28,297 nucleotides of DNA. Origin: a virus. Below are positions 3,263 through 15,483 of the stretch, one piece after another. Under the pieces are notes generated by a model. It had not been told where the DNA came from. It did no database searches and saw only the letters and a program-made list of their open reading frames with translations. Position 1 is the first letter of the stretch. Each line of letters begins with the position of its first letter. Position numbers and translations under genes: made by a program. Location: IMG/VR virus record IMGVR_UViG_3300037493_000610, positions 1 to 28,297 of that record; one strand, 5' to 3'.

Positions 3263-4407
3263 ATCATTCCTATGTCACAAGTATGTCGTTCAATCTCACC
3301 GTATTCTTTATGTAATATGATGGCGCACATATCACGACCTGCTCGGTAGCCTTGACCTTGATGCCAAGCATCACGAGCTGCTAGTGTCCTGAAATACTCG
3401 ACCTGACCACCTTGATACTCTTTAACATCCCTATGGTGTACGTGACCTACATACCAGTAGCGATACCTAGAACGGCCCCATTCTTCAGGTATATCGGATG
3501 CCATGATAGACATCATATCTCTGCCTTTTATGGTATCTCCATGCGTAGAGCCTATCAATACCTTACCAAACGGATAGTACCAAGACACTGATGGTGATAG
3601 GTCAACTTCCATGCGCGGCTGATTGTGAAAGAAGCAACTAATCATCAGTGCTAGTGCGTAAGATGAATGGCCATCGTGGTTGCCTTTATTGATGCGGAAT
3701 ATAACTTTCTCATGCTTCTCAAGTAACCGTTGCAAGCAATAGATAATAGCTCGTAATCCGATTTGCTGCACCTTAGCCCAGCGACCATCTACATCAAGCT
3801 GGTGACCTGAATTAGTGACGTTTTTCTGATTGTCCGCGTGGAACATGTCACCGAGATTTAATAACAACGCTGTGTGAGTGTTAGGTGAGCTTGCTATGAG
3901 CCTATCTATAGCACCGCAAGTTAGCTTCTCGGCTATGTCTAAATCAAAGTCATCTCCTGCGTCTTTCGCCCAGGCATACAAACCAAAGTGAGGGTCACCC
4001 ATAGGGATAACTGTCAACGTGTCAGTTTCTTTTAACTTAGGTGGTGGAGATAATGGAGATAGACCTTTAATTTCTTCTGCTAGACTAAATACAAAATCTT
4101 TAATAATTTCTTCTAACTGAGAATTATCAAGAGTTGATTTAACCCACTGGCCACTAGGCTTTCCATCTTTATTATAGTAGGTGCTGACACCCTTGACTAG
4201 GTAGCCTTCTGGCACTGGCCTAACCATATCATTTTGGGGGGCGTAACCTTGCAATGCAGCCTTGCGCCTTACTGCCCTCATTGCCTTATCAACAACCGTT
4301 GGATTAACGTTAAAAAACTTAGCAGCTTGTCGATTGCTACCAAGTTCTATAACCTTGTCTATAAACTCTGCCTGACGTGGCGTGGCAAACTGCTTTAAAT
4401 CTTCCAT
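3259..4407 (-). CDS. Metallophosphoesterase with N-terminal HTH
   Basis: A 382-residue protein. The N-terminus (about 8-50, RQAEFIDKVIELGSNRQAAK onward) looks like a helix-turn-helix. A linker follows, and from about 130 there is a calcineurin-like metallophosphoesterase with all metal-binding motifs: GDPHFG (D138, H140), LGDMFHAD (D187), KGNHD (N243, H244), STHGD (H289) and GHVHH (H322, H324). The family includes Mre11/SbcD-type nucleases and phosphodiesterases. HTH-phosphoesterase proteins occur in other phages, but their substrate is unknown. It sits after the lysis genes, where a late role in DNA processing is possible. It abuts the upstream gene with a TAATG overlap at 4407. Confidence 0.85.
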   Translation of the reverse strand: MEDLKQFATPRQAEFIDKVIELGSNRQAAKFFNVNPTVVDKAMRAVRRKAALQGYAPQNDMVRPVPEGYLVKGVSTYYNKDGKPSGQWVKSTLDNSQLEEIIKDFVFSLAEEIKGLSPLSPPPKLKETDTLTVIPMGDPHFGLYAWAKDAGDDFDLDIAEKLTCGAIDRLIASSPNTHTALLLNLGDMFHADNQKNVTNSGHQLDVDGRWAKVQQIGLRAIIYCLQRLLEKHEKVIFRINKGNHDGHSSYALALMISCFFHNQPRMEVDLSPSVSWYYPFGKVLIGSTHGDTIKGRDMMSIMASDIPEEWGRSRYRYWYVGHVHHRDVKEYQGGQVEYFRTLAARDAWHQGQGYRAGRDMCAIILHKEYGEIERHTCDIGMI

Positions 4408-4655
4408 TATTTTTTAACTAATACCACAGCAGCTTCAATGGCTAAGTTTAAAAGGTTAGGAGCAGTCTTAATAAATTGCTCTTTTATATTACCTTCTAAC
4501 TGAGTTAAAGCTGATTTAACAACTGCTTTTTTAGCAGAGCCAGATAATTCATTATTCATTTGTGATTCAACCAATGATTTAATGATTTCAAATAACTGAG
4601 CATCAATCAAGCGATTTATTACGAAAGACAACAAACTTAATAGGAAACTAGACAT
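4407..4655 (-). CDS. Small hypothetical protein beside the lysis genes
   Basis: An 82-residue protein with a hydrophobic N-terminal helix (SSFLLSLLSFVINRLI), a central amphipathic, charged part and a hydrophobic C-terminus (LLNLAIEAAVVLVKK). AAGGAG lies nine bases before the ATG. It begins one base after the lipoprotein stop. The hydrophobic ends suggest membrane association, so it could be an accessory lysis protein, but no family is recognised. Confidence 0.6.
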   Translation of the reverse strand: MSSFLLSLLSFVINRLIDAQLFEIIKSLVESQMNNELSGSAKKAVVKSALTQLEGNIKEQFIKTAPNLLNLAIEAAVVLVKK

Positions 4656-4656
4656 A

Positions 4657-4860
4657 CTATTGCTCCTTACATTCTAATGTGAAATAGATAAGTTCTATCA
4701 AATACCAATCAGCCACCGATAATTCTTTTTGCGGATTCACTTCCACTTGGATGTTCGGTTGACATACCAATTTTTTTGCTGGATGCGATAGTGATAGCTG
4801 GATTGACGAACAAGCCGACAATGACAACAATAGAAGTGCCAATAGAAAGAATGTCTGCAT
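4657..4860 (-). CDS. Rz1-like outer-membrane lipoprotein (putative o-spanin), nested in the holin gene
   Basis: From ATG 4860 this frame encodes 67 residues with a clean lipoprotein signal: MQTFF, a leucine-rich core, then the lipobox LSAC with the lipidated cysteine at residue 17 and SS after it. The mature part is about 51 residues. Small lipoproteins of this kind next to holin and endolysin are usually Rz1-type o-spanins, which fuse inner and outer membranes at the end of lysis. The frame overlaps the 3' half of the holin gene (4709-4860) in another phase. The frame is open to 4974, but an earlier start would put non-signal sequence before the lipobox. The ribosome-binding site is weak, so translation may depend on holin translation. 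Confidence 0.65.
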   Translation of the reverse strand: MQTFFLLALLLLSLSACSSIQLSLSHPAKKLVCQPNIQVEVNPQKELSVADWYLIELIYFTLECKEQ

Positions 4861-5023
4861 CCGACAATGGTAGCTCATAGCCAAATGCTTTAGCCAATGC
4901 CACAATAGCAGCCAATAGCCCTGCAATGACTGAGCCAGTGATTTGGCCTTTCTTCCATGCTTCAGGATTAGCAACTTCTTGACCTTTGCGAAATACAGAA
5001 AATAAAGCTATTAATTTATTCAT
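4709..5023 (-). CDS. Putative holin
   Basis: A 104-residue protein with two predicted membrane segments at about residues 30-48 (TGSVIAGLLAAIVALAKAF) and 58-78 (ILSIGTSIVVIVGLFVNPA), a basic N-terminus and a polar C-terminus. The RKGQEVANPEAWKKGQIT lead-in is familiar from class II-type holins in phages of betaproteobacteria. Holins form the inner-membrane lesion that releases the endolysin. Its start overlaps the endopeptidase stop (ATGA), and its 3' half contains the nested lipoprotein frame. The class call is by topology and context. Confidence 0.75.
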   Translation of the reverse strand: MNKLIALFSVFRKGQEVANPEAWKKGQITGSVIAGLLAAIVALAKAFGYELPLSDADILSIGTSIVVIVGLFVNPAITIASSKKIGMSTEHPSGSESAKRIIGG

Positions 5024-5436
5024 AGTGTCTTTCCTTTTTGAAAATCAGCTAACGATAATCCGCCAGTATATTGCATGTGAGCGGTTTCTTTTATCTTTCC
5101 AGACCATCTGCCAGCCCACTCAAGACCTATTGATTCGCCTATCCTACCACACTTTGCGTAAATAACATCGTTATCCCACAATGGCTTACCGTGAAGCATA
5201 GGCACCCAATCAAAGGCAACTCTGTAATTATGAAAGGATTGACCGCCTCTTGCGTTAGTAACTATTCTACCTTTGGCGGTTCTGCCTTGAGCATAAATAA
5301 CGTCTTGAGCTTCATTATCTCGGTAAGTAGAATAAATAAGAATGTCAAACCCTGCGGCTAAACATTCTTTTTTAAATTGCTCTGCTAGTGCTTTAACTTT
5401 TGGGTGTAACTCATCAAGCGAACGGCTATTAATCAT
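5020..5436 (-). CDS. Endolysin: L-alanyl-D-glutamate peptidase (M15 family)
   Basis: A 138-residue endolysin of the peptidase M15C / phage T5 endolysin type, which cuts the peptide stem of peptidoglycan between L-Ala and D-Glu. The zinc ligands are visible: S-F-H69-N in SFHNYRVAFDW with D76, and H120 in ETAHMQY. The early S-T-Y-R-D-N-E-A-Q-D segment is also typical. No signal peptide is present, so export depends on the holin. It overlaps the upstream coiled-coil membrane protein and the downstream holin by ATGA. Confidence 0.93.
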   Translation of the reverse strand: MINSRSLDELHPKVKALAEQFKKECLAAGFDILIYSTYRDNEAQDVIYAQGRTAKGRIVTNARGGQSFHNYRVAFDWVPMLHGKPLWDNDVIYAKCGRIGESIGLEWAGRWSGKIKETAHMQYTGGLSLADFQKGKTL

Positions 5437-5666
5437 TTATCTGCCTTGTTATCTATTTTGTCAAATAACTTATTAAGCATTTCTTTAAGCTCTCTAATGT
5501 CCTGGCGATAATCGTCACGAGCCACATAATCCTTTGGCAACTCCTCACGAAGTTTAGCCAAGTCTGATTTTAACTCTTTTACTGCTGCCCACATCTCACG
5601 CAAAAACCAACCTAAAACAAGTGATGATGATGATAAAAGTATGTTTAAGATTGATTGATTGTCCAT
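5433..5666 (-). CDS. Small membrane coiled-coil protein (possible i-spanin or holin accessory)
   Basis: A 77-residue protein with one N-terminal membrane helix (about residues 6-28, ILNILLSSSSLVLGWFLREM) followed by a charged, heptad-patterned coiled coil to the end. That topology fits an inner-membrane spanin (Rz-like), though it is short for Rz. Similar small proteins beside phage endolysins are also annotated as XhlA-like or holin accessory. Since an o-spanin candidate lies 0.6 kb downstream, an i-spanin role is plausible but not shown. Confidence 0.65.
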   Translation of the reverse strand: MDNQSILNILLSSSSLVLGWFLREMWAAVKELKSDLAKLREELPKDYVARDDYRQDIRELKEMLNKLFDKIDNKADK

Positions 5667-7495: not shown

Positions 7496-8887
7496 TTATA
7501 AGACTACCCAGCGTGATCCGCTAGGAACTGTTACCGTTACGCCAGTATTAATTGTAATAGTACCGACAGATGATGCTGATTTACCAGCAGTAATTGTATA
7601 GTTAGCAGTAACCACTAAACTATTCTCAACAAATACATCGTCTGATCCAGCACCAGTAGCACCACCGCCAACTGATCCCCATGCAGTGCCATTATAGCCC
7701 TCAAATTTAGTAGTGGTGGTATTAAACCTAAAAAAGCCTGTTGCTGGAGTACCATCACGCTGTGCAGTAGTGCCTACTGGTATTTTCTCTGATCCAGTTA
7801 GCGATGTAATGACATTTAAATTAACTCTTGCCGCATCAGCAGTTGTAGCATTAGTACCACCGCTACCAATCGGTAATGTACCAGATACATGACCAGTTAA
7901 AGTAACTTTACCATAACTAGGCGCAACACCTACGCCACCAGACAGCAAGGCATTGCCAGTAGCAACATCAGCTAAATTCGCTAATGTGTTAGTAGCCCCA
8001 CCAACCAATAAATCACCGACAGCATAAGTTGTCTGACCAGTACCGCCACTTGTTGCTGGTAAAGTGCCAGATACATGAGTAGTTAATCCAATCTTACCGT
8101 AAGCAGGTGCAGTACCAACACCACCAGAGATAAGCGCATTACCAGTAGCGACATCGGCTAGTTTTGACAATGCAGTAGTGGTAGAGGCAAAAACTATATC
8201 GCCAATGGCATAAGATGCAAATCCAGTACCGCCAGCAGTGGCAGGCAGTGTACCAGTAGTTAAAACGGATGTAGATGTGGCATAGACAGCACCACCAGAG
8301 GTAAATGTTGTTAAGTTAGTACCACCATTACCAGTACCTAAAGTGCCAGATATGTGAGTAGTAAGACCAATCTTACCGTAGGCTGGGGCAACGCCAACTC
8401 CACCAGAGATTAATGCGTTACCTGTTGCAACATCAGCTAATTTAGATAGGGCTGTTGTAGTTGAGGCATAGACAATATCACCGACAGCATAGCTGGATTG
8501 ACCTGTACCGCCAGATGCGGCTGGAATTGCCACATTGAATGTAGGTGTAGCATTGACTGTTAATGTATCGCCAGAGGCATCACCAAGAGTAGTATTGCCA
8601 GTTGAACTTAGAGTAGTAAATGCGCCTGTATTTGGCGTAGTAGCACCGACAGTGCCATTGATATTAATATCGTATCGAGTAAAAGCAGTCCAAGTAACTG
8701 GTGAAATAGATGTTAATCTTTCATGCTTTAAAGTTGTACTATTCCAGCGTATAGAATTAAGTGGCAAATTGGTAGGCGTAGTAAATGCAGAATCTAGGTT
8801 TAATGCTAAATCATCAAACCTACCATCTATTTGAGTGGTGTAATTGACATACGTACTGGTATTGGTAGGTAAACTATGGTCTGCCAT
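7496..8887 (-). CDS. Tail fibre with internal repeats
   Basis: A 463-residue fibre protein. After an N-terminal region (about 1-120, likely tail-attachment), there are three copies of a Gly/Thr/Ala-rich repeat containing S-Y-A-V-G-D-I-V-Y-A-S, L-A-D-V-A-T-G-N-A-L and S-G-G-V-G, with G-G-T-G linkers. A region typical of fibre tips follows (F-R-F-N-T-T-T-T-K-F-E-G-Y-N-G-T-A-W), then a C-terminal repeat of Thr/Val beta strands ending V-T-V-P-S-G-S-R-W-V-V-L. That ending is familiar from phage tail fibres. It begins two bases after the NlpC-J fusion gene and is probably the receptor-contacting fibre or its main shaft. Confidence 0.82.
   Translation of the reverse strand: MADHSLPTNTSTYVNYTTQIDGRFDDLALNLDSAFTTPTNLPLNSIRWNSTTLKHERLTSISPVTWTAFTRYDININGTVGATTPNTGAFTTLSSTGNTTLGDASGDTLTVNATPTFNVAIPAASGGTGQSSYAVGDIVYASTTTALSKLADVATGNALISGGVGVAPAYGKIGLTTHISGTLGTGNGGTNLTTFTSGGAVYATSTSVLTTGTLPATAGGTGFASYAIGDIVFASTTTALSKLADVATGNALISGGVGTAPAYGKIGLTTHVSGTLPATSGGTGQTTYAVGDLLVGGATNTLANLADVATGNALLSGGVGVAPSYGKVTLTGHVSGTLPIGSGGTNATTADAARVNLNVITSLTGSEKIPVGTTAQRDGTPATGFFRFNTTTTKFEGYNGTAWGSVGGGATGAGSDDVFVENSLVVTANYTITAGKSASSVGTITINTGVTVTVPSGSRWVVL
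7921..8523 (-). repeat. Three imperfect repeats in the tail fibre gene
   Basis: Near-identical coding segments lie at about 8386-8523, 8102-8243 and 7921-8058, each about 140 bases and encoding the SYAVGDIVYAS / LADVATGNALISGGVG unit. The first two are the closest pair. The spacing (about 285 then 180 bases) is uneven, with one unit having an additional intervening segment. They could change copy number by recombination and so alter fibre length. Confidence 0.75.
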
Positions 8888-8889
8888 TT

Positions 8890-11800
8890 TTAATATCCTC
8901 TAACATTCCAAGATACTGAGCCGCTTGTACGGACACCAGCACTATTAAATAAGTATATCCTAAAACTTTCAGGATATGTTGATATATTACCACTTGTGTT
9001 AGCTGTTGTTAAATTAACAGTGTATTGGTTTGCATTAACTACTGATGCAATTGTATAAACGCCATTTGGTGCAGTTCCACTTGTAAATGTTAATCTCACT
9101 TTTTGACCTGAAATTAAACTATGAGCTGTAACATTGACTGTCATAACATTTGATGTGACAGAATATGTGCCAGTTAAAACGCTATCTTTAAAATCATATA
9201 CAGGTGTTAATAATGTTGAACCGTTTGGCGAAACGGTAATTGACATAATATCAACAAATTCTTTTGCAAAATTGACAATCGTACCGCTTGCATCAGTTGA
9301 TATTGCATTGACATTACCTGCATCACTGATTAATTTAGCATTTAGTAATACATTCATTGATTGCAATAGATATAAACCAGTTGTATTAGATGTTGTTACA
9401 TTTGCAGTAATTTTTACATACCTAAAGTTAGTAGCAAATATAGATTGTGCGCCAGTAGTAGTTGTATAAGTAATGCCATCTTGAGATATGCCAATATCAA
9501 ACGATATGGTTGCAGAAGAAGCAATTACTGAGCCTTGATAATTTAAAGTAATTTGACTACTACCTAATACGGTGCCGTAATCAAATACCTCAACATAAGA
9601 GCCAGTTTCTTTGTTTGGCTGAATAAATATAGGGAACCCTGCGGCTATTTGTGCAGTTGGGTCTGCCCATATTGCGGCTGGGGTTGTAGTTGCTATATAT
9701 GGTCTAACAGTTGAAATTGGCTCTAATTGTGCGCCCCAAAAATATGCACCATCACTTATAACAGATACCCCACCAGTAAATCCTGCATAAGTTAGTAAGG
9801 TATCACCATTAGATACCCCTGTTGTTACAGACATTACAATGCGCCACCATCCGTTTCCTGCATTGATAGAATAAGCACCTGTACCAATACTTTGCGAAAT
9901 AACCCCAGTATCATAATTAATAGTTAATGCTGATATATTTGTTGATGTAGTTCCATTCCTTAAAACAAACGAATTGCCAATTGTTGCACCAGTTAATTTT
10001 TTGGCATAAATACTATAAGTATTTCCAGTTGCAGACCCAATTCCAGTAATAGTTTGTACACATAATGTTGCCCCAGCCGCAGTAGCAGATAGTGTATCGG
10101 CAGTTAATGTACCATCTGGGGCAGTTATTGAATTTGCAACTGAAGTTAAATTAGTTTTTGACCATGCCGCATTACTAAAATCTTGTGAGTAAGTTAAAAG
10201 ATTCCTATTAAAATGCTCTGTCCATGTTTCAGTTGTACTAACTGGCAATAACACGCCACCTTGCTCATTGATAGCAGAAGTCTTTGTACCGCTAAATGTA
10301 CTGAAATATTGTGCATTAAATACAAAGTCTGGCGGTTGAGCCACTTGAGATGTAATGCTAACTGGAGTTGAAAAGTTATTATCTGTATCACGTACAGCAA
10401 TCCAATAAGTATAATTGCCAGCACTTAATTCTTGAATTGAAGTAAATGTACCATTTTTAAAACCAATTATTTCAGCAGTAGCATAAACAGGGCCTTTTCT
10501 GATTTGTACGTCTTGAATTGGCAAAGTTGTTTTTGCAGGTAATGACCAATATAGTAAAACATTATTATCAATAACTTGAGTTCTAACGCTTGCGCTAGGA
10601 ACTGGATTAGGCGCTGATTTTGGTACAGTAATAGTAAGCGCAGTTGATTCAGCTCCTAATAAATCAATAGTAGAAATGTTGTATATTCTGTCACCAAGCC
10701 AATCAGCAGGTAATGTAATTGTGCTTGATTTTGCATATATTACATCTGAACCATAAGTAATTTTATATTGATTTAAGCCAAATAAAGGGGTTATATCGTT
10801 CCAATCTAATGTCACTGTTGCATTGGTTAAACTTGTGTCAGCAAACGTATAAGATGGAATATGAACTGCTGGAGCAACAGGTATAACTCTTGTATAACTT
10901 ATTGCCAATGATGTTGCTGAGTATCTGTTATCGGTATCAAAAGAACGGACATACCATGTATTTGCACCTAATGCTGGGATAACAGAGAAACTTAAAGCAT
11001 CACCTTTAAACAAGAATCCATTTGTACCCCAACCAGTATCAGAAGTTCTCAATTCATATCCAGATATTGGCAATGTAGTTCTTACTGATGCTGCCCATGA
11101 TAATTGCAATATATTATTAACAATTGAAGTAGAACTTGATGGTGGTGGATTTGGTATTACTTTATTAACAACAACAGAAGTAGCTGTAGATTGTCTATTT
11201 TGAGTATCTACTGTAGTTACGGTAAATGTTCTTGAACCAACCCAATCAACAGGAACGGTTAATGTTGATGTTCTTGCTGTAACAGTGCTTGAGTTATAAG
11301 AAATAATGTAATGGCTAAGACCAAATTGAGGAGATACATCAGCCCAATCTAATACTAATGATGTTGTAGTTAATGATGTACTTAAAAAGCTAGTATTAAT
11401 TACAGATACAGCAGGAACAATAGATGGGGTAAATGTTACTGAAGTTGCATTTAGACAATATAAATCAATAACATCAACTGCTTTAACAAAGTAATCTTCT
11501 GTTACTCCTATTGCTCCAGGCGCAATTAAACATTCAGATGATGCACCACGGTATAAGTATCCAGCAGTTCCCCATCCAGCATTAGTTGCACGAACCTCAT
11601 AACCCCATAAATCTAACTCAGCATTATCATTCCAATCTAATTTAATTTTATCTCCACTCACTGTGGCTATTAGACCAGTTACATTTGCTGGAGGATTTGT
11701 CTTACCTGCAACTGTATGATTTGTTGCATAAGCCCATGGGCCAGCTCTACCATCATCAGTAACGTATCTAACTCTAATTCTATATTCTGCGCCTTCTTCT

Positions 11801-14800
11801 ACATCAGAAAAATATATACATGTATCTCTAATATCAACTGATTGAGAAGTTTGCCATATCAATGATGTATCGCCAGAAAAATCAATTTGACCTTCAATGT
11901 ATTTTGCAATAGAAGGTAAAGTTTCAGGATTGCTAAATGATAATTTAATTCGATAAAGAAATTGATTTGGGGCTGGTCGCAACATAACCGTTTCATCGCT
12001 AACTACAGTTGTAATAACTGGAGCAACAGTAATCTTGTCCTTCATCAATAATGGAGGCAATGATAGTTGACTATTAAATGGCGGTATTGGCTCTAAATCA
12101 CTATTATAAATAGCTGGGGAATAATCTACCAATGTCAAAAGAGCAGATAAGTTATTTGATGGCTCAATGCTTTGAACAATCAAATCAACTGAATCACTAC
12201 TTAATGAACCAAACATGAATAGATTGTTTACAGCTCCTTCAGTTGATGTAATTGGACTAGTTAATGTAATCGTATCGTAATATCCAGCAGAAGGCTTAGA
12301 TGCCACTGTACGTGTAATGCTAGACCCATTTTCTAAACGAATTCTAATGGTGTAATTAAAACCGACATCCATAGGCATTTTTTCATCAAGACGGATTGAT
12401 GTCGTTGATATAAATTGAGCTATTCGACCACTCCCCAATCCCCACATAGGAACGTCATGGCTAACTTTAACCAAGTCACCGCGAGTACATATTAAGTTCT
12501 CAATATCTGCGTTAAGCGTATAGGTTTCAGGGCGAAGTTTAATTTGTGCAAAATGGAAACGAGCATGCTTATGAATTGCTGTGCGTGATGTTACGCCAGG
12601 GAATTCCATTTGCTCAAACAATGTAGCATTGGTTTCATCGTAGCCATCGTTGTACACAATATATTCATCAGGCTGATACCCTTGCTCAGAATTTTTAAAT
12701 GGAATTCTAAATGCGTGAGGCAATTTAGGTAGTGCCTTAGTAGATTCAAAACCCCATGAGTTATGTGGCGTAAAATACTGAGCCGTAACTGTACGTGGCT
12801 TATCGGTAACAACTGTCCATTTGCCATCAACTAATGTTGGAGATGAGCGACCTGCTGCACAAATATCACGCAACACATCCAACAAACTTTGCTGGTCTGT
12901 AATAACTGAATCAAAAATAAATTCATTTGTTTGACAATACTGATGCCAAACTTCTATTGATGTTAAATCCAATTGCGAATCTGTCACAGCTTGAGCATTA
13001 GCAGGATGTTGCAATACATACCTAAACAATGAAGCAGGATTTCTAGTAGGTCTAAGAACCCATGTTGTAGTTGCAGAATCCCAATCCAAACAGATTGACA
13101 CTACTGTTGCTGAAATACCTTCTAAGGATTGATTAATTTGGTCAGTTGCTTTAATTTTTAAAGCAGTCATTGCCATTGGCTTAGGCGGATTAACTGGTCT
13201 TGATGCGCCATAAGCCGTTACTGAAGTTAAAATAGAAGAACTCATGCGCTGATATTTAATAGCGCTGGCAACGTATTCTTCAGTAGTAGTCGTATTTCTA
13301 CGAATACGCACTTCATACTTACCTTCTGGAACTATGAATGACACATTGTAACTAAACGCATCTTTACGTTTAACAAAGTCTGTACCAGTTACACCAATGT
13401 AAACTGTATTGGTTCGACCAGTTCTGCTTAAACTACCAACAGATATGGTTGCTGAAGTTTGTTTGACAGATGCTGATGGGTCATAAGCCATGCCATAATT
13501 TGTTGAAGATGATGCTGTCTTAGTAGTTAAATTTAAACCAGTGTATGTAGCTGGCATTAAACTGCGTCTATCCACTGTACTAAATACCTTAGAGCCATAC
13601 ATACATATTTCATATAACAATATTTCGTCAGATGGAATAGTTGGATATATGTTATATACAGTATTTAGATTTTTTGTAATTTTCTTTAATCTATCTAAAA
13701 AAGCGCCACTAGGATTGGCGTTTGATGTATTTGAATAACTACCATAACGAATAACCAATTTATTAAATATATCAAGACTTAAAAACGCCCATCTGTAGCA
13801 TGGGTCTGGACTTGATTGCATCCCTGTAGTAGTGGTACCAAAAAATGCACCATCAATAGTAACGGTTGCTTTTTTAAATAAACTTTCAACTTTACCAAAG
13901 GCCTCTAGTGGGGCTAATGTATTATTATCTAATTGACGAATTTGTACATCTGCACTAAACAATTCTTCTTTAATTTTACCTGCGCCATCGCCATCCATTT
14001 GCAATCTTCTCAATCCTCTTGGGAAATGAAGATTAACACTTACAGAAGTGCATAATTCATTGATTACTTTTTCATACCAAGGAGATACTACAGAAAAAGC
14101 AGTTCCAGTGGCTAATGACGCATTTGCAGCAGTCTGAGCATAGGTAAATGTAGTTGGAGTTGGTGTAGAGGCAATGGTAAAAGTACCATTAAACCCAGTA
14201 GCGCCTGATATGGTTACTGGGTTGTCAACAAGAAACGTGTGTGCAACTGATGTAGTAACCGTTACTACATTTGTAGCTCTTATAATAGATGTGATTGTTT
14301 TTGTAGTTTCTGTTGCTGCCATCTCAACATTGATAGGTAATTGCTCAACGTCATTTGGGTATATTGAATTAAAGTATGAATAATCTTCAACCAAATCTTT
14401 AAAGCCACTTATAGTGGATTGGTCTAATTCTTCAAGCGTATTAATATCTGCTGAACCAATACGCATGTCAGACACTTGCAATGGGCCATAACCCCACACA
14501 AGCAACATTCTTAGGTAAGATGTGTCTGTGTTTGATTCAGCATATATCTGTGCGCCCAACAATCCTGTAAAGCGCATTTGACCCAATACTACAGGGATGG
14601 CACCGTATTGAGATGCTTGATTGCTACCGCCTTGTAATAAATTCTGAGCAATAGCATTACCAGGCGCTTCTTGAGTTGGCATCCTAACAGGAAATATGGC
14701 ATTTAATAATAAATTACCAACTATCGTTAGACCTGCTTGAACAGCAGTGGCAGCAAATCCTTCAAGAGCAAGCATTTGAGGGCCAACAATATAAGCAGCA

Positions 14801-15483
14801 GCCACTACAATTGCAATGCTCAATATCATTTTTAATACGTTACCTTCAGCAACGGCACGATATTGAATAACATCACCTGGCAATGGAACAATATGCCATT
14901 CTTCTTGCGGAACTAATTTACCATTAACAAATATAACTGGATTAAAGTTATATTCTTGAGCAACAGGGTATTGCGTTTTAACAAACTCAATAATTTCTGC
15001 AATAGATGAGTTTGCAGGAACCTGACCATCAATGCGTTCAGTCTTTAACGGATGGGGTTTAATGGCAAGCGTTAAATCACCAACATTAACTTTTTCAACG
15101 TAACGATAAAATCCTTCAACACGATGCTTCCATATTCCAGTGTCAAAACGCTCAATGGTGGTATCTGTATGCTCACTGACGTGAATAAATTGATTGGGTG
15201 ATACTACGACCCCAACGTGCATAAATAAACCGTTTACACGAAGCAGGGCAACGTCACCAATGGTAGGAGTGTCAACTTTTTCCCAGCCTTCTTTACCCAA
15301 GGCAATAAGTTGTTCTATTTTTGTTTGCTGCTCTGCCTCGTATTCCTCAGCAAAAGATGGCAGCTCAATGTTGTATTGTTCTTTATAGATTAACTTAACC
15401 AAACCCCAACAATCAATGCCGTCTTTATCACGGCCTTTTTTTAGGTATTTAAGACTAATGTAATCATTCCACCATGTTTTCAT
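8890..15483 (-). CDS. Tail-tip fusion: NlpC/P60 peptidase, gpI-like and gpJ-like host-specificity protein
   Basis: One uninterrupted 2197-residue frame. Residues 1-130 form an NlpC/P60 peptidase like the gpK tail-tip enzyme: Cys25 in GIDCWGLVK, His89 in FMHVGVVVS, His101 in FIHV. Residues about 130-270 resemble gpI: a ubiquitin-like part, then a long hydrophobic stretch (about 216-262, LKMILSIAIVVAAAYIVG). From about 285 (SQYGAIPVVLGQMRFTGLL) it is a gpJ-type central tail-tip protein. Fibronectin-like modules lie at about 1260-1720, a jelly-roll-like module (NLLTYSQDFSNAAW) at about 1758-1930, and further beta domains to the end. In lambda these are three genes. The peptidase probably opens host peptidoglycan and the J part recognises the receptor. 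The ATG overlaps the previous stop (TAATG). Confidence 0.9.
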   Translation of the reverse strand: MKTWWNDYISLKYLKKGRDKDGIDCWGLVKLIYKEQYNIELPSFAEEYEAEQQTKIEQLIALGKEGWEKVDTPTIGDVALLRVNGLFMHVGVVVSPNQFIHVSEHTDTTIERFDTGIWKHRVEGFYRYVEKVNVGDLTLAIKPHPLKTERIDGQVPANSSIAEIIEFVKTQYPVAQEYNFNPVIFVNGKLVPQEEWHIVPLPGDVIQYRAVAEGNVLKMILSIAIVVAAAYIVGPQMLALEGFAATAVQAGLTIVGNLLLNAIFPVRMPTQEAPGNAIAQNLLQGGSNQASQYGAIPVVLGQMRFTGLLGAQIYAESNTDTSYLRMLLVWGYGPLQVSDMRIGSADINTLEELDQSTISGFKDLVEDYSYFNSIYPNDVEQLPINVEMAATETTKTITSIIRATNVVTVTTSVAHTFLVDNPVTISGATGFNGTFTIASTPTPTTFTYAQTAANASLATGTAFSVVSPWYEKVINELCTSVSVNLHFPRGLRRLQMDGDGAGKIKEELFSADVQIRQLDNNTLAPLEAFGKVESLFKKATVTIDGAFFGTTTTGMQSSPDPCYRWAFLSLDIFNKLVIRYGSYSNTSNANPSGAFLDRLKKITKNLNTVYNIYPTIPSDEILLYEICMYGSKVFSTVDRRSLMPATYTGLNLTTKTASSSTNYGMAYDPSASVKQTSATISVGSLSRTGRTNTVYIGVTGTDFVKRKDAFSYNVSFIVPEGKYEVRIRRNTTTTEEYVASAIKYQRMSSSILTSVTAYGASRPVNPPKPMAMTALKIKATDQINQSLEGISATVVSICLDWDSATTTWVLRPTRNPASLFRYVLQHPANAQAVTDSQLDLTSIEVWHQYCQTNEFIFDSVITDQQSLLDVLRDICAAGRSSPTLVDGKWTVVTDKPRTVTAQYFTPHNSWGFESTKALPKLPHAFRIPFKNSEQGYQPDEYIVYNDGYDETNATLFEQMEFPGVTSRTAIHKHARFHFAQIKLRPETYTLNADIENLICTRGDLVKVSHDVPMWGLGSGRIAQFISTTSIRLDEKMPMDVGFNYTIRIRLENGSSITRTVASKPSAGYYDTITLTSPITSTEGAVNNLFMFGSLSSDSVDLIVQSIEPSNNLSALLTLVDYSPAIYNSDLEPIPPFNSQLSLPPLLMKDKITVAPVITTVVSDETVMLRPAPNQFLYRIKLSFSNPETLPSIAKYIEGQIDFSGDTSLIWQTSQSVDIRDTCIYFSDVEEGAEYRIRVRYVTDDGRAGPWAYATNHTVAGKTNPPANVTGLIATVSGDKIKLDWNDNAELDLWGYEVRATNAGWGTAGYLYRGASSECLIAPGAIGVTEDYFVKAVDVIDLYCLNATSVTFTPSIVPAVSVINTSFLSTSLTTTSLVLDWADVSPQFGLSHYIISYNSSTVTARTSTLTVPVDWVGSRTFTVTTVDTQNRQSTATSVVVNKVIPNPPPSSSTSIVNNILQLSWAASVRTTLPISGYELRTSDTGWGTNGFLFKGDALSFSVIPALGANTWYVRSFDTDNRYSATSLAISYTRVIPVAPAVHIPSYTFADTSLTNATVTLDWNDITPLFGLNQYKITYGSDVIYAKSSTITLPADWLGDRIYNISTIDLLGAESTALTITVPKSAPNPVPSASVRTQVIDNNVLLYWSLPAKTTLPIQDVQIRKGPVYATAEIIGFKNGTFTSIQELSAGNYTYWIAVRDTDNNFSTPVSITSQVAQPPDFVFNAQYFSTFSGTKTSAINEQGGVLLPVSTTETWTEHFNRNLLTYSQDFSNAAWSKTNLTSVANSITAPDGTLTADTLSATAAGATLCVQTITGIGSATGNTYSIYAKKLTGATIGNSFVLRNGTTSTNISALTINYDTGVISQSIGTGAYSINAGNGWWRIVMSVTTGVSNGDTLLTYAGFTGGVSVISDGAYFWGAQLEPISTVRPYIATTTPAAIWADPTAQIAAGFPIFIQPNKETGSYVEVFDYGTVLGSSQITLNYQGSVIASSATISFDIGISQDGITYTTTTGAQSIFATNFRYVKITANVTTSNTTGLYLLQSMNVLLNAKLISDAGNVNAISTDASGTIVNFAKEFVDIMSITVSPNGSTLLTPVYDFKDSVLTGTYSVTSNVMTVNVTAHSLISGQKVRLTFTSGTAPNGVYTIASVVNANQYTVNLTTANTSGNISTYPESFRIYLFNSAGVRTSGSVSWNVRGY
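10330..11700 (-). repeat. Alternating fibronectin-like domain repeats in the gpJ-like part
   Basis: Within the fusion protein, two kinds of beta module alternate A-B-A-B-A. A modules (about 11700-11420, 11160-10890 and 10610-10330) carry Y-E-V-R-A-T-N-A-G-W-G or Y-E-L-R-T-S-D-T-G-W-G, with W at a core strand. B modules (about 11411-11160 and 10870-10620) carry D-W-x-D-x-(S/T)-P-x-F-G-L and a later D-W-x-G-x-R. The A/B pair has been duplicated as a unit. Borders are approximate. Confidence 0.65.

Follow-up and report, generated by a model that had tools for sequence, protein, structure and literature searches.

A conserved lipoprotein gene overlapped by a holin-like gene encodes a probable o-spanin-like protein in a phage lysis cassette

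The locus described in this study raised the question of whether a phage can disrupt the outer membrane without a classical i-spanin. Rz/Rz1 equivalents were reportedly treated by Summer in 2007. The embedded, overlapped and separated spanin architectures have all been defined between an i-spanin gene and an o-spanin gene, and the accessible parts of a 2018 survey state that about 13% of the surveyed phage genomes of Gram-negative hosts had no recognised spanin at that time and that 31 genomes contained a lipoprotein with no linked i-spanin candidate (Kongari 2018, PMC6139136). A conserved lipoprotein within the frame of a holin gene provides one location in which unrecognised genes for outer-membrane lysis can escape gene callers. 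In the present study, such a gene was located, its conservation was followed through its relatives, and the possible roles of its product were weighed.

The window, that is, the whole stretch of DNA analysed, was a virus record of 28,297 bases. Its lysis region, encoded on the minus strand, contained a 77-aa protein with a transmembrane (TM) segment and a coiled coil (positions 5433-5666; phrog_462, 1.1e-13), an endolysin of the VanY/M15 peptidase type (5020-5436; Pfam PF02557, 1.1e-8; phrog_2649 endolysin, 2.8e-27), a holin-like gene of 104 aa with two TM helices (4709-5023; predicted N-in/C-in), the o-spanin-like lipoprotein gene of 67 aa (4657-4860; mature part of 51 aa) and, directly 3' of the lipoprotein stop, an 82-aa gene (4407-4655), which was a conserved part of the module and encoded a predicted five-helix protein. 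The mutual adjacency of the endolysin, holin-like and lipoprotein genes placed the last of these in a lysis cassette, and endolysin-like genes were also present near the module in many relatives' loci. Moreover, the terminase of the window came nearest to those of phages infecting Gram-negative bacteria (PAJU2, 67.5%), and its host is therefore expected to have an outer membrane.

The original prediction held that a frame with an LSAC lipobox begins inside the holin gene, and this frame proved to be real. It corresponded to a minus-strand ORF at 4657-4974, which comprised 105 aa from its first start, TTG, and lay in the +1 frame relative to the holin-like ORF. The start of the gene was most likely the ATG at 4860, giving a product that begins MQTFFLLALLLLSLSAC..., and a second ATG at 4878 provided an alternative start. 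From the 4860 start the N-terminus read MQTFFLLALLLLSLSA/CSSIQ..., where the slash precedes the cysteine of the lipobox (Cys17, codon 4810-4812), and the signal peptide contained no basic residue. The gene had also been described as nested in the holin frame, which was accurate for its start and for 152 of its 204 nt and inaccurate for the remaining 52 nt, which lay past the holin stop; the lipoprotein gene is overlapped by the holin-like gene and is not fully nested in it. With the frames arranged in this way, stop codons can be introduced into the lipoprotein without altering the holin protein. For the nested start, the predicted Shine-Dalgarno pairing fell short of -4 kcal/mol in 37 of the 43 loci; at the holin start it was -4.1 kcal/mol or better in all 43.

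Relatives were collected with the holin protein as query, which yielded 9 loci, and by a holin alignment search, which yielded 60 viral loci and one locus in a Pseudomonadota MAG contig. Because the patterns of the alignment search all lay upstream of the overlap, these loci were not selected for the lipoprotein. Removal of identical genes left 50 distinct holin genes, including that of the window; L009, which was cut inside the holin gene, and duplicates of contigs already in the set were excluded. The lipoprotein frame and its lipobox, judged by motif and hydropathy, were found at the same place in 44 of these 50 genes, and the mature pattern recurred with them. The first scoring rule counted 43 of the 44 and missed L118 (Cys at -3), and the rule used for resampling likewise counted 43, with L118 included and L117 excluded because its start was too far upstream. 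Lipobox retention in close relatives, on which the original prediction depended, was observed in all six distinct ones (holin 92-95% identical), each of which carried LSAC or LSGC. Two of the 50, the distant relatives L124 and L128, had an open frame in which the lipobox cysteine was replaced by serine (around holin codon 71), and this replacement may represent a loss of lipidation or the use of another export route. L136, L143 and L146 were without the lipoprotein frame, and the sixth exception, L145, was cut by the end of its contig. The five untruncated exceptions were scattered on the holin tree and required five changes, on a tree with long branches and many weak forks.

Furthermore, the lipoprotein was retained beside endolysins of M15, M15_3-like, GH24-like and glucosaminidase-like types (assigned by eye except for the window's, among the loci listed), and the module was kept while the endolysin type varied. 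At the search sensitivity used, the cultured-phage collection gave no match to the lipoprotein, the 82-aa protein, the L141 relative of the 82-aa protein or five holin variants, so that on this basis no named phage in that collection carries the module.

The probability that such a frame would arise by chance was assessed by resampling the synonymous codons of each of the 50 distinct holin genes 2000 times according to the codon usage of the locus, a hit requiring a start, a hydrophobic stretch, a lipobox and an open frame. This procedure predicted 0.02 genes with a lipoprotein frame, compared with 43 of 50 observed; the 43 loci are related and hence non-independent, with holin identity to the window falling to about 30-40% across the lipoprotein-carrying family. 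No lipoprotein frame was present in the +2 frame of any of the 50 holin genes. Selection on the lipoprotein frame, the check proposed together with the original prediction, was then apparent among seven close relatives including the window (21 pairs). The tail past the holin stop had a pN/pS of 0.13, indicating purifying selection, and pS of the holin frame decreased from 0.184 before the overlap to 0.118 inside it, with a value of 0.247 for the endolysin. Inside the overlap the pN/pS of the lipoprotein frame was 0.86, which is in line with the expectation for DNA in which each frame restricts change in the other. These comparisons indicate that 4657-4860 is a genuine protein-coding gene and not a product of chance.

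The mature lipoprotein showed a regular pattern of cysteines. Their number was 0, 2 or 4 in all 43 mature parts, of which 34 had both the early and the late cysteine and 9 had neither. Because the frame of L116 continues further, this member was truncated at 60 residues before counting, and its late cysteine was entered manually as present. According to the available portion of the survey, 0, 2 and 4 are the commonest cysteine numbers of o-spanins besides 1 (PMC6139136, Table 9). In an alignment of 21 members, which misplaced the lipobox of L141, L144 and L149, five residues were invariant, including the lipobox cysteine and two further cysteines, and the conserved mature motif was present in divergent phages. 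The AlphaFold2 model of the window lipoprotein contained long strands at residues 31-41 and 55-66 (mean pLDDT 79.9, pTM 0.37). In the predicted hairpin, Cys33 would lie opposite Cys64, a pairing deduced from residue numbers and not from coordinates, and the even cysteine counts would fit a beta-hairpin closed by disulfides.

An aspartate after the lipid cysteine retains a lipoprotein in the inner membrane. The residue at this position was never Asp (0 of 43), which was consistent with sorting to the outer membrane. The mature part was about 43-85 residues long, and no C-terminal TM segment was seen in it by eye. A fold search of viral structure models with the lipoprotein returned nothing at E <= 0.001, and similarity to known o-spanin families was weak, the best match being phrog_16495 at 0.0089 for one of the 21 members. 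Moreover, in a six-frame scan of the window and of five fuller relatives, no lipoprotein candidate besides this one appeared in the window, G001, G002, G004 or G008, and a single, probably spurious, further candidate appeared in G006.

The overlapping gene has the features of a putative holin. Holin-like proteins of the family were predicted to be N-in/C-in in 48 of 49 cases by hydropathy and charge, with two TM helices, and they lay next to the endolysin; this topology leaves only a short periplasmic loop. Searches gave no Pfam match above the cut-off and no holin in NCBIfam, and the best PHROGs holin match of the family was phrog_9752 at 0.0013, obtained for 2 of 34 members. Topology and synteny would therefore place the protein with the class II holins, a placement that a match to a known family did not accompany.

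The inner-membrane partner of the lipoprotein was sought among its neighbours. The original prediction had named the 77-aa protein as the partner i-spanin, in which case the lipoprotein would be a conventional o-spanin. The two are indeed in the same cassette, and the 77-aa protein has a single N-terminal TM segment followed by a coiled coil, matches the Rz-like spanin phrog_739 weakly (0.042) and has counterparts in 5 of the 6 records scanned, with none seen in G004. Homologues of the phrog_462 type were found in seven phage records, two of which were KL1, and six were examined. In Burkholderia KL1, Limnohabitans DC33, cta1H496 and zth2-2 they adjoined a complete pair, in which the gene of a canonical Rz is overlapped by that of an Rz1-like lipoprotein, and the 77-aa protein was rejected as the likely i-spanin on account of these four phages. 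No Rz/Rz1 pair was near the homologue in MW202711 or in Roseobacter CRP-810, and in CRP-810 a different lipoprotein frame adjoined it. In addition, the segment before the TM helix was neutral or negative in all 22 proteins of this type and the segment after it ranged from -2 to +2, small charge differences that give a weak indication of an N-out/C-in topology with a cytoplasmic coiled coil. A partnership with this protein is consequently very improbable. The phrog_462 protein (window 5433-5666; KL1, L152 1-267) is labelled a lipoprotein in PHROGs and in KL1, and no lipobox was found in it.

The 82-aa-type gene, located 3' of the module in most loci, had a good Shine-Dalgarno sequence and a weak match to the holin phrog_6918 (1.3e-4). 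Its product scored 16 bits (E 0.016) against Holin_LLH (PF09682), below the gathering score of 24.9 bits, was modelled as a compact five-helix bundle (pLDDT 91.7, pTM 0.81) and matched no fold in the PDB at E <= 0.001. As the model is compact and helical rather than a TM segment with an extended domain, the protein was rejected as a type-II i-spanin and retained as a possible partner only. An alignment search with it returned 18 loci, three of which were on contigs new to the set (L176, L177 and L178); L177 and L178 had both the holin-like gene and the lipoprotein that overlaps it, and L176 was cut by its contig end. Furthermore, PF03245 (Rz) was found in 0 of 20 records, hydropathy revealed no convincing conventional i-spanin in five fuller relatives, and no type-II single-TM coiled-coil protein judged to be a partner was found near the module, where the overlapped gene has two TM helices. 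There may be a distant or unusual i-spanin, or an unlinked one encoded beyond the sequenced portion of the genome to which the window belongs. The candidates for an inner-membrane partner at the locus are the holin-like protein itself and the 82-aa product.

Taken together, the lipoprotein encoded at 4657-4860 is probably an outer-membrane protein that acts in an o-spanin-like manner in host lysis. The gene, its conservation, its lipobox, the selection on it and its place in the cassette are evident from the sequences. The product would be read in the +1 frame from the holin-like mRNA by internal initiation and exported by the Sec system; it would receive its lipid at Cys17 and then be directed to the outer membrane, with a periplasmic part of roughly 50 residues predicted to form a disulfide-closed beta-hairpin. 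Once the holin had released the endolysin and the cell wall had been cut, the lipoprotein would help to disrupt the outer membrane. Several observations speak against this reading, namely the weak Shine-Dalgarno pairing at most nested starts, the serine of L124 and L128, the absence of the frame from L136, L143 and L146, the low similarity to known o-spanins, the signal peptide devoid of basic residues, the additional lipoproteins of some relatives and the failure to find a type-II coiled-coil partner. It is termed o-spanin-like by its anatomy and is not classed as a proven two-component o-spanin, because the i-spanin neighbour that defines that class was sought and not found. As a tentative possibility, the locus may represent a spanin system without a conventional i-spanin, in which assembled holin, alone or together with the 82-aa product, provides the inner-membrane anchor that enables the lipoprotein to fuse or tear the outer membrane. 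If this were true, one gene with two frames would yield both an inner-membrane holin and an outer-membrane lipoprotein; a fourth would thereby be added to the known genetic architectures, and the outer membrane might be disrupted in a new way.

Other roles were also considered. The lipoprotein could be a lysis regulator, such as an antiholin or timing factor that is exported and contacts the periplasmic loop of the holin, rather than a disruptor of the outer membrane. Such a regulator is at odds with the lack of an inner-membrane-retaining Asp in all 43 loci, with cysteine numbers that are those commonest among tabulated o-spanins apart from 1, and with its standing as the sole lipoprotein candidate in most records examined. 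On the other side, the gene is shared with the holin-like protein, no i-spanin was found in the records examined, and it is common for an antiholin to be encoded within a holin gene, as stated in the accessible part of PMC9025707. A regulatory role was judged unlikely on balance. The product might also serve superinfection exclusion or lysogenic conversion and have no part in lysis, since Llp of T5, Cor and Bor are small phage outer-membrane lipoproteins of such a kind; this reading is quite improbable for a gene that stays locked to the holin gene while the endolysin type and the neighbours change. That the frame is open merely by chance and untranslated, for which the weak Shine-Dalgarno pairing at most starts could be cited, is extremely improbable in view of the resampling, the constrained tail and the mature motif kept in divergent phages.

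Viewed as an o-spanin-like protein, the lipoprotein resembles several known systems in part. Like Rz/Rz1 of lambda and LysB/LysC of P2, as presented in the accessible parts of PMC6139136, it involves a small lipobox protein that shares its DNA with a different lysis gene, read in a second frame, within a lysis cassette, and its cysteine pattern resembles that of the separated spanin genes PseT.3/PseT.2 of T4. Unlike in two-component spanins, the overlapped gene encodes a two-TM holin-like protein and not a type-II i-spanin, and an i-spanin was not found. It is also comparable to antiholins in being a second product of a holin gene. However, the antiholins named in the covered parts of the sources, PMC9025707 among them, arise from dual starts or lie wholly within the holin gene and are not described there as lipoproteins, whereas the present protein is read in another frame, has a lipobox and extends past the holin stop. 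It shares an N-terminal lipobox with unimolecular spanins such as T1 gp11; unlike the lipoproteins studied here, these are described in the source portions available as having a C-terminal TM segment. Searches of the PMC open-licence literature, a collection outside which most subscription papers lie, yielded no description of an o-spanin gene that is embedded in a holin gene or overlaps one, and the accessible parts of PMC9144972, PMC9025707, PMC7692668 and PMC12596118 mention no o-spanin gene overlapping a holin gene. Within the same partial coverage, a small lipoprotein in the second frame, found here in a holin-like gene, has so far been described only inside another lysis gene.

Several further arrangements were observed. 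Another small lipoprotein, unrelated to the first and with two cysteines conserved, lay just upstream of the holin gene in L119, L120, L123, L126, L130, L132, L133, L137 and L138, which are exactly the nine loci whose overlapping lipoprotein has no mature cysteines; three of the other 34 loci carried some other lipoprotein candidate. In the inspected members of these nine, in which roles may have shifted, no 82-aa-type gene was seen to follow the module. In L016, L051, L055 and L059, the arrangement downstream of the endolysin was different: a lipoprotein frame overlapped the gene of a small protein that has a hydrophobic helix at its N-terminus, and the two are possibly another unusual spanin pair. 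Elsewhere in the window, the minus strand at 8890-15483 carried a 2197-aa ORF that, by eye, starts like an NlpC/P60 peptidase and continues in the same frame as an apparent central tail-tip protein, and the ORF at 7496-8887 was fibre-like and contained repeats around SGGTG...YAVGDIVYAST...LADVATGNAL.
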